This document shows positions 44,394 to 49,334 of a stretch of 64,000 nt of DNA, one piece after another. This DNA comes from Rhodothermus profundi (GTDB lineage: Bacteria > Bacteroidota > Rhodothermia > Rhodothermales > Rhodothermaceae): contig NZ_FRAU01000004.1 of the NCBI RefSeq assembly GCF_900142415.1, forward strand, positions 62,001 to 126,000, given 5' to 3'. The notes beneath the pieces are model-generated. The model searched no databases and was not told where the DNA came from. It saw nothing but the letters and a program-made list of their open reading frames with translations. Every line of letters starts with the position of its first letter. Positions within the stretch are counted from its first letter, which is position 1. A program made the translations under genes and the position numbers.

Positions 44394-46727
44394 CTACGAT
44401 TCCCGAAAGCCTAATAATCGCAAGCCATTCAGCGAAACCAGAACCGTGGACCCTTCATGCCCCACCACTGCCAGAGGCAGCGACATCCCCTGCAGCAGAA
44501 TCGCACCGATCATCAGCCCCATCACGCCAAACGCAATCGCGAAGTTTACCAGCAACGTGCGGCGTGTTGCGCGGCTGAGCGCCAATGCATAGGGTAGTTG
44601 GTGCAGGTCGTCGCGCATGAGCACCACGTCGGCGGTCTCCAGTGCCACGTCTGTGCCGGCACCTCCCATGGCGATCCCCACCGTGGCCGCTGCCAGTGCC
44701 GGCGCATCGTTCACCCCGTCTCCCACCATCGCGGCCGCTTCGTAGCGATCGACCAGGGCTTTCACCTGGGCAACTTTCTGAGCAGGCAGTAATTCGGCAG
44801 CCACGACATCGACACCTGCCTCCCGGCCAATAGCCTCGGCCACGTAGCGGTTGTCGCCTGTCAGCAACATGATTCGGGCAATCCCCAGCTTTCGGAGCCG
44901 CTGCATCACTGCGGCGGCGCCGGGTCGCAATCGATCCGCAAAGGCCAGCCAGCCCAGCACCTCCTTGCGGCCGGCACGCTCCCACGCTACCAGTACGGCC
45001 GTCTTGCCCTGACGGGCCAGCGCCTCAACGGCTTCCTTTCCTTCGGTAAACCCTTCGGCCTCCTGCCACGCTGCCTCGAAGTAGCGCAGATTACCCACGT
45101 GCACCGTGGCCTCGCCTACCTTAGCCCGCACGCCCTTGCCCACTACTGCCTGAAAACCTTCGACCGCCGGCACCTGCACGCCCCGCGCACGAGCCGCCTC
45201 AACAGTAGCCCGCGCCAGATGATGCTCTGAGCGCTGCTGCACCGCAGCAGCCAGCCGCAGCAGTTCCGCTTCGGAGAGTCCTGCCTCTGCACGCACCCCG
45301 ATCTGCACCAGGCGGGTCCGACCTTCGGTAAGCGTACCGGTCTTGTCAAACGCAACGGCCCGCACGCGCGCCAGCGCCTCGACATAGACGCCCCCCTTGA
45401 ACAGCACGCCCCGCCGCGCCCCGGCCGCAATGGCCGACAGCACAGCAGCCGGCGTCGAAATTACGACGGCACAGGGCGAGGCGGCTACCATAAGCGTCAT
45501 GGCCCGGTAAAAAGCCTCTCCAAAAGGTTCTCCCCAGAAAACGACCGGCACCACAATCGCCAGCGCTGTCAGCCCCAGCACTCCCAGCGCATAGGGTTGC
45601 TCCAGACGATCAATCAACCGCTGGGTTACGGCCTTTTCGCTCTGCGCCTGTTCAACCAGCTCAATCATGCGAGCCAGCGTCGAAGCCGAGGCTGGTCGGG
45701 TCACGCGCACCTCCAGGCTTCCCGTCGTGTTGATCGTGCCGGCAAACACCTCCTGCCCGGGCCCCTTATCCACCGGCATCGACTCACCCGTGATGGACGA
45801 TTCGTCTAGCGCACTTTCGCCCCGAACAATCACGCCATCAAGCGGCACGCGGTCTCCCGGACGCAGCACGAACACCTCTCCAACCTGCACCGCTTCCACG
45901 GGCAGCTCCACTTCTCGCCCCTCCCGGATCACCCGTGCCCGGTCAGGTCGAAGCTCCATAAGGGCCTGAATAGCTCGCCGCGAGCGTCCGATGGCATAAT
46001 GCTGCAGCAGATTGGACAGCGAAAACAGAAACAGCAGCATGGCCCCCTCAGCCGGCGCCCCGACGACCAGCGCACCTAACGCCGCCAGCACCATCAGTAG
46101 GTCGATATCGACCGTGCGATGCCGCAGCGCTTCAATGCCATTACGCAGCCCGTCCCACCCCCCGAAGACATAGGCAATCCCATAGGCCAGAGCGCTCACA
46201 AGCGACGGCGCTCCCAGCCGTCCGGCCAGCCACCCCACAACCAGTCCACCCAGCGTCAGGGCCACGAAGAGCGCCTCTCGGCGCGTTCCCTGAAGCCAGA
46301 GACGCCAGGATTGCGCTGGCTCAGACGGCAACGTTCGCACGCCGAAGCGCTCGACCACGCGGGCCAGCTCCTCCGGCGAGGTCTGCGCCGCATCGTAGGC
46401 AACATGCAGCACACCGCCCCGAAACGACACGTGCGCCTGCCGCACACCCGGCAGCGTCTGCAACCGTCGCTCCAGCGCCAGCGCACAGGTCTCGCAACTG
46501 CGGCCGCCCTGCTCCTGCACATGCAGGGTGCAATGGGCCGGCCGCTCTTCCAGAGCAGCCGCCAGCTCCCGGGCCAGCCGCTCGGCCTCCGCTGCCGAAA
46601 GCCGCTGGCGATCATAGGTAAGCGTCAGGCGTCCCGAGGCCGGATCTACCTCCACCTGCACCAGTCCATCCGCCCCGGCAGCCGATTGTTCGACCAGTTC
46701 CGCACAGGCTTTTATTTGAGATTCCAT
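44394..46727 (-). CDS. P1B-4-type metal-transporting P-type ATPase with N-terminal CxxC domain
   Basis: The 777-residue protein has an N-terminal part with two HMA-like units, the second with SCETC (C78, C81), then the P-type ATPase core: SITGESMPVDKGPGQEVF, DKTGTLTEGR, GDGVNDAPAL. The sixth membrane helix carries SPCAVVISTP and the last HEGSTVLVSLNGL. SPC with HEGST/GGT is the signature of group P1B-4 (cobalt, iron or zinc export), not the CPC of copper or zinc/cadmium pumps. An N-terminal CxxC domain is unusual in that group, so metal specificity cannot be settled here. A palindrome lies 22 bases upstream of the ATG. Confidence 0.93.
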   Translation of the reverse strand: MESQIKACAELVEQSAAGADGLVQVEVDPASGRLTLTYDRQRLSAAEAERLARELAAALEERPAHCTLHVQEQGGRSCETCALALERRLQTLPGVRQAHVSFRGGVLHVAYDAAQTSPEELARVVERFGVRTLPSEPAQSWRLWLQGTRREALFVALTLGGLVVGWLAGRLGAPSLVSALAYGIAYVFGGWDGLRNGIEALRHRTVDIDLLMVLAALGALVVGAPAEGAMLLFLFSLSNLLQHYAIGRSRRAIQALMELRPDRARVIREGREVELPVEAVQVGEVFVLRPGDRVPLDGVIVRGESALDESSITGESMPVDKGPGQEVFAGTINTTGSLEVRVTRPASASTLARMIELVEQAQSEKAVTQRLIDRLEQPYALGVLGLTALAIVVPVVFWGEPFGEAFYRAMTLMVAASPCAVVISTPAAVLSAIAAGARRGVLFKGGVYVEALARVRAVAFDKTGTLTEGRTRLVQIGVRAEAGLSEAELLRLAAAVQQRSEHHLARATVEAARARGVQVPAVEGFQAVVGKGVRAKVGEATVHVGNLRYFEAAWQEAEGFTEGKEAVEALARQGKTAVLVAWERAGRKEVLGWLAFADRLRPGAAAVMQRLRKLGIARIMLLTGDNRYVAEAIGREAGVDVVAAELLPAQKVAQVKALVDRYEAAAMVGDGVNDAPALAAATVGIAMGGAGTDVALETADVVLMRDDLHQLPYALALSRATRRTLLVNFAIAFGVMGLMIGAILLQGMSLPLAVVGHEGSTVLVSLNGLRLLGFRES

Positions 46728-46765: not shown

Positions 46766-46848
46766 AACGCCCCAACGCGCCTCAGGATGCTGAAATTGCA
46801 AAATTTAGAAGTGGTCCGAGTTCAGGTTATCGCACGGTTACACTTGAC

Positions 46849-46883
46849 TTGTGTGTGTTACCTTTTTGTGTGTGTTACCTTTT
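46849..46883. repeat. 17-bp tandem direct repeat before the small-protein/ABC operon
   Basis: The unit TTGTGTGTGTTACCTTTT begins at 46849 and again at 46866, giving two adjacent copies with a 17-base period that share one base. It lies about 40 bases before the ATG of the small hydrophobic protein (46922). Two copies at one-and-a-half-turn-plus spacing suggest a binding site for a regulator or a promoter element. Confidence 0.8.
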
Positions 46884-46921
46884 AACGCCAACTCATCACC
46901 CATCCAAGCTACTGGTTCGCT

Positions 46922-47200
46922 ATGATCCACTGGATACGCAGGCTTCTCCGCATCACGCTGGGCTACGTCATGCTGCATCCCGTTGCCGGTTCGCTCGTGG
47001 CCCGGGCTCAGCACGAACCGGAACGTGGTTTTCTGGATGCGTTGCAGTGTGGCCTTGCCATTGCAGGTACAATCGTGTTCTTTATCGGGCTTTTTGCCGT
47101 GCCCCCTGCAGGAGCAGTAGGATGGACGCTATATTTAAGCAATGCCATTCTTGGCCCAACCGCAGTGGGCACAGGGCTCGTAACGGAATGTTTGCAGTAA
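46922..47200 (+). CDS. Small two-cysteine hydrophobic protein with predicted signal peptide
   Basis: I do not recognise this 92-residue protein. It has a Sec-like N-terminus: basic RRLLR, hydrophobic core (ITLGYVMLHPVAGSLV) and a plausible signal peptidase site ARA|Q at residue 29/30. The mature part is two hydrophobic helices, about 43-61 and about 68-88, joined by a proline/glycine turn. Two cysteines, C43 and C90, bracket the hairpin; a disulphide could close it into a ring. The topology recalls VirB2-like subunits or hydrophobic bacteriocins, but no family match is claimed. It overlaps the next gene (permease) by 13 bases, so it is co-translated with the transporter. Confidence 0.6.
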   Translation: MIHWIRRLLRITLGYVMLHPVAGSLVARAQHEPERGFLDALQCGLAIAGTIVFFIGLFAVPPAGAVGWTLYLSNAILGPTAVGTGLVTECLQ

Positions 47201-47946
47201 GTCCATTTCGCCCCTGGCTTCGGCTTAACTACCGCCTGATCGGCCGGGGGTGGTCGTTGCTGGAATTCTGGGCATTGGTCGCCCTGAGTGGGATCGGCAT
47301 TTTTACGCTGGGCTTTATTCTACCCCTGTTTCAGAGCATGTATCCCCGGAACGCCGGCAATGCGGCCACCTATACCGTTACCCTTCTGCTGTATAGCTAC
47401 CTGGTATTATGCTACCTGGTTTTTCGACTTGTCCGACGGACCGACTGGCACCGGGGGGTGCTTGTTCGCTTCTCCCACATGCCGAGGTATGCGCTGGCAT
47501 TTTTTGTGCTAGAGCCCGGCCTGCTGATGCTCGCTGGTTTTTACTTGCTGGGGCTAGCTGTCGGGTTCGCCGCCTTCTTCCCGGTGGGGCAGGCCCTGGC
47601 GGCCATCGGGCTGACGCTGCTTGTCCTGGTCGGTCTGTTTGCGCTGCTGTTTGCTGCGTGGTGTCGCTGGGGCGGTCGGCTTCAGGGGCGTCACGAATTG
47701 CTCCAGCTCGTACTGATAGGCGGGTGGCTTCTTATTCTGCCGAATATAGCGGCCAACTGGCTCCCGGCTGTTCGGGCGTTCGTCGCCTGGTTGCTTTCGC
47801 TGTCGCGCTACGTGCCGCTGGCAGGGTCTTATGGGGAAGCCATGGCGGCCATGCTGAGCGGTGCGCCCGTGCTGACGCCGATATTATGGCTGCTGGGGCA
47901 TACGGCCGCGGCGCTGCTGATTGCCGGGTGGGCCAGCCGGGGATGA
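47188..47946 (+). CDS. ABC-2-like membrane permease subunit (hypothetical)
   Basis: The 252-residue protein starts at ATG 47188, inside the 3' end of the small-protein gene. It has about six hydrophobic helices with long interhelical loops poor in charge (LEFWALVALSGIGIFTLGFIL, LVLCYLVFRLV, AFFVLEPGLLMLAGFYLLGLA, and so on), and no known substrate motif. It should be a membrane permease of the ABC-2/ABC-3 export type, with the next gene (47950) as the second permease and 48588 as the ATPase. Codon use resembles the neighbours. No sequence homologue is named here; function is inferred from order and shape. Confidence 0.6.
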   Translation: MFAVSPFRPWLRLNYRLIGRGWSLLEFWALVALSGIGIFTLGFILPLFQSMYPRNAGNAATYTVTLLLYSYLVLCYLVFRLVRRTDWHRGVLVRFSHMPRYALAFFVLEPGLLMLAGFYLLGLAVGFAAFFPVGQALAAIGLTLLVLVGLFALLFAAWCRWGGRLQGRHELLQLVLIGGWLLILPNIAANWLPAVRAFVAWLLSLSRYVPLAGSYGEAMAAMLSGAPVLTPILWLLGHTAAALLIAGWASRG

Positions 47947-47949
47947 GCC

Positions 47950-48591
47950 ATGCGTTCGGTGCACTGCCTGCTGTTGCGCCTGCACGGTCGCTCTCGATCC
48001 AGGGGGGCCGCCTTCCTGGTCGTGGGACTGATGGCGCTGCTGCTCTGGAAGCTGGGGCAGTATGCCCCGGAAGCGCACGATACGCTCCGGCTCTTGTATG
48101 CTATCGGTAGCAGCATGGCATTGATTGCGCCGTTTTTCGAATGGTTCGTCAACGACCACGAATGGTGCTGCTACCGCCTCTGGGGCGTTGATCTGGCCGA
48201 ATTGCTCCGCCGTAAACGTCAGGTATTGCTGCATCAGCAGGGGTTGGTGGCGCTGGCCATGCTGGCATGCTGGATCGCCCTGCATCCGGCCACCTGGCGC
48301 CAGGATCTGCTGCCGCTGACGGCTCTGAGCCTCACCGCCCTGAGCGGCGGCTCTGTCGCCGGACTGGCCGTTTATCCGGCCGTGCGCCGCTGGTGGCCCG
48401 AAGCCCCTGTTGTAGCCGGGTTTATCGGGGGCGGGACACAATTGCTCACGCTGGGTATCGTCCTGCTGGGTTACCTGCTGCCGCTTCTGGTGCCCCTGCT
48501 ACTTTTTGTTCTGTGGCGCTTCAGCCGCCCGCTGTTTTCCCGGACAGCGCGCCAGTTGGACTCCCTGGAACTGTCGGTAAGACGCGCATGA
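47950..48591 (+). CDS. Second ABC-type membrane permease subunit (hypothetical)
   Basis: The 213-residue protein has about five or six hydrophobic helices (for example GAAFLVVGLMALLLWKLGQY and LLPLTALSLTALSGGSVAGL), with charged cytosolic tails at both ends (SRSRSR at residue 14, ARQLDSLELSVRR at the C-terminus). It begins 3 bases after the first permease ends and ends in a four-base ATGA overlap with the ATPase gene. It is presumably the partner permease that pairs with the first, giving a split heteromeric ABC-2 transporter. I do not recognise any specific subfamily. Confidence 0.6.
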   Translation: MRSVHCLLLRLHGRSRSRGAAFLVVGLMALLLWKLGQYAPEAHDTLRLLYAIGSSMALIAPFFEWFVNDHEWCCYRLWGVDLAELLRRKRQVLLHQQGLVALAMLACWIALHPATWRQDLLPLTALSLTALSGGSVAGLAVYPAVRRWWPEAPVVAGFIGGGTQLLTLGIVLLGYLLPLLVPLLLFVLWRFSRPLFSRTARQLDSLELSVRRA

Positions 48592-49334
48592 ACGCAACAG
48601 CGCTGGACGTTTACCGTTGCTCCAAGCGCTTTCGCAGTCGAAAAGGCACCGCGCAGGCCCTGCAGGACGTGACCTTTCAGGTGCCTGAAGGTGCGCGCTG
48701 CGGCCTGCTCGGCCCCAACGGAGCCGGGAAAAGCACGCTGATTCGCATCCTGGCCAACCTGCTCAGGCCCGACGCTGGCCAGATTACGGTGCTGGGGCAC
48801 CCCCTACGCTGGGGTCGTCATGCCTACAAACGCCAGGTGGGCTTCATGCTGGAAGACCTGGCGCTGATGGAACGCCTTACGGGCCGCGAGCAGCTCGAAC
48901 TGGCGGCGCAGCTTTACGGTCTTCCCCCTGACCAGGCCGCTGCCCGGATCGAATCGCTGACCCGTCCCTTTGAAGTAGCCACAGCGCTCGATCGCTGGAT
49001 CGAAACCTATTCAAACGGCATGCGACGCCAATTGGCTTTCCTGCTGGCGCTGCTGCACCGGCCACGCCTGATCGTGCTGGACGAACCCTTCGAAGCCATG
49101 GACGCACAGGCGATCGAGGCCGCCATCGACCTGCTACATGCGCATAATCGTGAGGGCGCCACGCTGCTGATCAGTTCCCACCGGCTGGACAAGCTTGAGC
49201 GCCTGTGCGACTACCTGGTGGTGCTGCACCGGGGACGCGTGCGTTTTGCTGGTCCGATTGCTGACTTTTGCAATCATCTACCCGAGGCCGATACTCTGGA
49301 AGCCGCCTATCTGGGCTGGCTCCGAGCCGGCTGA
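48588..49334 (+). CDS. ABC transporter ATP-binding protein
   Basis: The 248-residue ATPase carries Walker A GPNGAGKST (42-50), the signature YSNGMRRQL, Walker B LIVLDEP and the H-loop SSHR. It is of the CcmA/NatA-like export class. The ATG overlaps the stop of the second permease (ATGA), so it belongs to the small-protein operon: small hydrophobic protein, permease 1, permease 2, ATPase. It presumably powers export or membrane insertion of a hydrophobic substrate. The operon ends 69 bases before nadE. Confidence 0.95.
   Translation: MNATALDVYRCSKRFRSRKGTAQALQDVTFQVPEGARCGLLGPNGAGKSTLIRILANLLRPDAGQITVLGHPLRWGRHAYKRQVGFMLEDLALMERLTGREQLELAAQLYGLPPDQAAARIESLTRPFEVATALDRWIETYSNGMRRQLAFLLALLHRPRLIVLDEPFEAMDAQAIEAAIDLLHAHNREGATLLISSHRLDKLERLCDYLVVLHRGRVRFAGPIADFCNHLPEADTLEAAYLGWLRAG

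Follow-up and report, generated by a model that had tools for sequence, protein, structure and literature searches.

Lactococcin 972-type operons encode a Sec-exported peptide together with an ABC transporter. Lactococcin 972 contains no cysteines and binds lipid II (PMC8538875). The peptides of gallocin A carry two cysteines near their ends and are modelled as helical hairpins; their disulfide is essential for killing, which involves permeabilised membranes (PMC10100652). LanFEG transporters combine one ATPase with two different permeases, and their role is mostly one of self-immunity (PMC4239024). Here we consider a four-gene operon in a 64,000-nt stretch of Rhodothermus profundi DNA (the window), which a preliminary description had presented as a possible new export system, in which a small two-cysteine protein is encoded next to its own exporter. 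We propose that the operon probably encodes a Sec-exported hairpin bacteriocin resembling gallocin A and a LanFEG-like self-protection transporter, and no new export system. The literature searched yielded no description of hairpin-bacteriocin systems in Rhodothermus.

Operon structure and the small protein

The four genes (Table 1) lie on the same strand and neighbours are tightly coupled. The small gene and permease A (ATG at 47188) overlap by 13 nt, a 3-nt gap separates the stop of permease A from the start of permease B, and permease B and the ATPase gene join in an ATGA overlap. The boundaries and spacings reported earlier are correct, except that the 13 nt between the first two genes are an overlap and not a gap; position 46849 is merely the mechanical TTG start of the permease A frame. 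The overlap of the small gene with permease A is 13 nt in G000, G003 and G004 and 10 nt in G001. A scan for promoters and terminators gave no signal above chance.

Table 1. Features of the operon, with positions in the window
Feature	Position	Strand	Remarks
Upstream element AAATTTAGAAGTGGTCCGAGTTCA	46801..46824	+	Conserved in Rhodothermus genomes
Small protein gene, 92 aa, ATG start	46922..47200	+	Putative bacteriocin-like precursor; orthologues, omega 0.24–0.28
Sec-type signal peptide, residues 1–29	46922..47008	+	Inferred cleavage ARA|Q; site conserved in orthologues
Predicted mature peptide, 63 aa, hydrophobic	47009..47197	+	C43 at 47048–47050, C90 at 47189–47191
Permease A, 252 aa	47188..47946	+	~6 TM; no known family
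Permease B, 213 aa	47950..48591	+	~5–6 TM; no known family
ABC ATPase, 248 aa	48588..49334	+	DrrA/LanF-like; Walker A, signature and Walker B intact

Judged by sequence comparison, the small frame is a genuine protein-coding gene. Its product is 81% identical to the orthologue in G003 and 55% identical to that in G004, both other species, and the gene is under purifying selection in two pairwise comparisons (omega 0.28 and 0.24), at a level matching that of the permeases in the same pairs (0.23–0.28; ATPase 0.10). The three intact orthologues (G000, G003 and G004) show no variation in A[RW]A|Q or in either cysteine, and the signal-like start with ARA|Q and the residues C43 and C90 of the preliminary description are confirmed. 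GC3 of the small gene is 0.57 compared to ~0.71 for its neighbours, as might be argued for a chance ORF; however its omega values, and a signal site and cysteines that are kept between divergent species, speak against a chance frame, and the protein matches no permease, nor any other family or structure, which speaks against a permease fragment. We regard both of these explanations as very improbable. Pfam gave no match to the small protein up to an E-value of 10, PF10439 included, NCBIfam gave none above cut-off and a PDB sequence search gave none, and no convincing relative was found beyond Rhodothermus.

The conserved cysteines occupy positions 14 and 61 of the 63 residues of the predicted mature peptide, near both ends. 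In 4/4 genomes the TGT codon for the second cysteine begins with the TG of the NTG start of permease A; since this codon is in register with the start of permease A, the overlap may in part dictate the conservation of C90, besides any role in a disulfide. The two hydrophobic helices described previously are clear only in part, the first being strongly hydrophobic (KD 2.23) and the second weak. AlphaFold placed helices at residues 35–59, 64–77 and 79–91 with low confidence (pLDDT 62), and this low confidence of the predicted structures counts against the bacteriocin reading. So does the net charge of the mature peptide (-3), as many bacteriocins are not acidic, although three comparison peptides are likewise slightly acidic.

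We propose that the precursor is taken up by the Sec pathway and that its signal would be removed at ARA|Q, giving a mature peptide whose fold is probably a hydrophobic hairpin of helices, closable by a C43–C90 disulfide, and that would kill by insertion into the membranes of related cells. The peptide would also pass the outer membrane, and the lack of an outer-membrane export gene among the operon genes counts against this scheme. Permeases A and B together with the ATPase would form a LanFEG-like ABC transporter which clears the peptide from the inner membrane of the producer.

The small protein has no double-glycine leader, its place being taken by the Sec-type signal, and the C39 peptidase domain (PF03412) was detected in 0/7 Rhodothermus genomes compared to 8/14 control genomes; that the genus lacks this peptidase is consistent with export by a Sec-type signal in place of a double-glycine leader.

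The earlier remark that the membrane genes could not be assigned to a family holds for both permeases, for which Pfam and NCBIfam gave no match above cut-off and a PDB sequence search gave none. The predicted structures were too weak for use and a Foldseek search with the permease A model returned solely non-significant matches, and among 394 genomes of the phylum and in a scan of GTDB contigs we found no convincing relative of permease A beyond Rhodothermus. The ATPase scores 130.8 bits against the LanF-type model TIGR03740, far below its cut-off of 309.75. In LanF-type ATPases the Q-loop glutamine is replaced by glutamate, and glutamate occupies this position in 5/6 of the ATPase orthologues (glycine in G003); as unrelated control ATPases also carry Glu or Asp here, the residue does not discriminate as a LanF marker. 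We rejected the idea that the 460-aa permeases encoded beside the nearest ATPases are represented here in split form by permeases A and B, as there is no similarity between them.

Bacteriocin-type clusters in other Bacteroidota

Inspection of the genes around the closest ATPases in the class led to locus L095, and searches with the L095 ATPase and with the peptides led to further clusters. In L095 the gene for a double-glycine leader peptide (MRTLSLEKMEQIEGG|DLIGC...SGPVGWG...YECL) comes first, then those for two permeases (243 and 217 aa) and an ATPase; genes for a thioredoxin-like protein and for an ABC exporter with a C39 peptidase lie further downstream. In L131, L149 and L150 a two-cysteine double-glycine peptide is likewise encoded directly 5' of permease, permease and ATPase, each time with a C39-type exporter and a thioredoxin-like protein. 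L150 also encodes a MauE/DoxX-type protein. Pfam confirmed C39 in L131, L095 and L128 and MauE in L150, the matching genes of the remaining clusters being assigned by similar sequence, size and place. On this gene content L095, L131, L149 and L150 are bacteriocin-type clusters, and the peptide, permease, permease, ATPase order that they share with the Rhodothermus operon counts for the bacteriocin reading. The bacteriocin layout suggested previously, alongside circular peptides and pilin-like subunits, thereby gains support from independent Bacteroidota clusters. L090 also has the order permease, permease, ATPase, behind a transposase gene, while L147 encodes a two-cysteine peptide with one permease only. 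A further L131 peptide scores 20.9 bits against Bacteriocin_IIc, below the cut-off of 27.1.

L131, L149, L150, L147, L148, L151 and L095 represent a cluster that recurs in Bacteroidota, comprising a C39-peptidase ABC exporter, a membrane protein of ~222 aa, MauE/DoxX, a thioredoxin-like protein and double-glycine two-cysteine peptides, often together with permease, permease and ATPase. Neither the peptides nor the permeases of this cluster reach the cut-off of any curated family.

The window peptide bears a modest resemblance to the peptides of these clusters. It scores 51 against the peptides of both L150 and L095 (shuffle p 0.0006 and 0.004); among 239 segments of the window with comparable hydrophobicity none reached this score (best score 42). 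However the other four of the six comparison peptides gave no significant score, nor was a comparison of profiles significant, and this counts against the bacteriocin reading. Also counting against it, no homology was detectable between the Rhodothermus permeases and those of the bacteriocin-type clusters, in alignments that are shallow, and the ATPases lie on a separate branch: in a tree with long branches and biased composition, the window clade is split from the bacteriocin-cluster ATPases by a supported branch (98/95) and groups with ATPases whose partners are single 460-aa permeases. The layout is therefore identical and the peptide is possibly related, while the transporter either has another origin or has diverged too far for its descent to be told. 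Our claim is that the operon works like the parallel clusters, and membership among them is not claimed.

These clusters also bear on the proposal that permeases and ATPase are a dedicated exporter of the small peptide, be it a signal, a pilin-like subunit or a bacteriocin. Their place in one operon with the peptide gene, and co-translation with it, would suit such a role; however a Sec-type signal already provides for export, and the parallel clusters have a C39 exporter besides their permease and ATPase genes. Protection is the better reading of the three genes than export, because the peptide would leave the cytoplasm without them and the parallel clusters have a separate exporter. For a pilin in particular, we note that no pilus genes were present among the neighbours read. 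Taken together with the loss pattern below, we consider the dedicated exporter improbable, and the terms new export system and own exporter are not retained.

Losses within Rhodothermus and genomic setting

The unit is confined to Rhodothermus and its four-gene order, which had been suggested as something to seek in relatives, is intact in 3/7 species; the small gene is thus present in several of the homologous loci. In G001 the small gene is frameshifted at or near a run of T, with the signal site, first cysteine, C-terminal half and second cysteine still readable either side of the frameshift, and the transporter reading frames are intact. In G005 a short unrelated stretch takes the place of the small gene, again with permeases A and B and the ATPase intact. 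Between G004, which has the peptide, and G005, which does not, omega for the transporter genes is 0.27, 0.28 and 0.18, values that also span the time before the peptide was lost; the transporter genes are therefore without clear decay. Retention of the transporter without an intact peptide gene in these two genomes argues against a dedicated exporter, and loss or frameshift of the peptide gene beside an intact transporter counts for the self-protection reading. That the toxin is lost first and the protection kept is expected of such pairs, although there are two events only.

The G006 contig breaks off within permease A. In G002 there remains the ATPase alone, from codon 69 onward, behind the conserved upstream element, and the unit was therefore deleted there; the element is joined in frame to the ATPase remnant (L086 6819–7529, - strand), a clear deletion scar.

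This 24-nt element, AAATTTAGAAGYGATCCGAATTCA, is a single copy in the genome and lies upstream of the operon, or of what is left of it, in six Rhodothermus genomes, the copies outside the window lying in L030, L031, L032, L033 and L086 (five other Rhodothermus genomes). It is possibly a regulator site or a leader.

On the other side of the element lies a P1B-type metal ATPase gene (44394–46727, - strand; SPC and HEGS motifs), which has a divergent orientation to the operon in five genomes. Several related loci have CzcCBA-like RND genes next to the operon; these are absent beside it in the window, where NAD synthetase, the downstream neighbour of the operon, and then RuvA are found in their place. 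In G003 and G004 a coiled-coil gene (MAIVTVP[RK]VLREKLGEEG...) with near-identical repeats in variable number (L003 1946–2485, + strand; L002 860–1234, - strand) lies between the metal ATPase and the operon; it is absent from the window. A role in metal transport was set aside as the main reading, as the metal genes are still present in G002 although the operon has been lost there, and the linkage therefore looks positional.

The same surroundings have to be weighed for the alternative that the small protein serves the ABC transporter as an accessory subunit in the membrane and that the transporter moves some other substrate (a lipid, drug or metal-related compound), the signal-like first helix of the small protein staying in place as a membrane anchor. 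Translational coupling through the overlapping start is conserved, the small gene evolves under the same omega as the permeases, and the metal ATPase and, in several genomes, CzcCBA-like genes are close by. However a subunit missing from G005 and frameshifted in G001 beside intact transporter frames is not always present, the conserved A[RW]A|Q suggests that the signal is cleaved, and bacteriocin-type clusters have a peptide with a cleavable leader at the equivalent position. We consider the accessory subunit unlikely, and retain a secreted bacteriocin with a protective transporter as the best explanation of the operon.

Significance and comparison with known systems

If this explanation is true, hairpin bacteriocins occur in Rhodothermus, a thermophilic genus, and a layout of two-cysteine peptide, permease, permease and ATPase that lacks a curated family name is repeated in Bacteroidota; a heat-stable disulfide hairpin peptide would moreover serve conveniently as a model. 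The advance is moderate, as a peptide with a protective ABC transporter is already a familiar theme, here in an unusual form. More tentatively, the operon might represent a hairpin bacteriocin from a Gram-negative thermophile, exported by Sec and closed by a disulfide, with ABC protection from two undescribed permease families, that evolved separately from the double-glycine versions of Bacteroidota.

Like gallocin A and related class IIb bacteriocins, the Rhodothermus peptide has a long hydrophobic mature part with few positive charges, two near-terminal cysteines and, at low model confidence, a predicted helical hairpin. It differs from gallocin A in having a Sec-type signal and no double-glycine leader, in being one peptide and not two, in its lack of a match to PF10439, in a presumed ABC transporter for self-protection where gallocin A has a small immunity peptide, and in its diderm thermophilic host. 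The transporter resembles LanFEG in combining one ATPase with two different small permeases beside a peptide gene; unlike LanFEG, its permeases match no family above cut-off in Pfam or NCBIfam, named immunity-permease families included, its ATPase falls far under the LanF-type cut-off and the peptide matches no lantibiotic precursor. A Sec-type peptide gene beside ABC transporter genes is shared with lactococcin 972-type operons, whereas the two cysteines set the Rhodothermus peptide apart from lactococcin 972. The clusters at L095, L131, L149 and L150 differ from the Rhodothermus operon in their C39 exporter and thioredoxin-like genes, in permeases without detectable homology and in ATPases on another branch; they share with it the order of the four genes and the Cys...Cys layout of the mature peptide, and two of their peptides partly share its core sequence.
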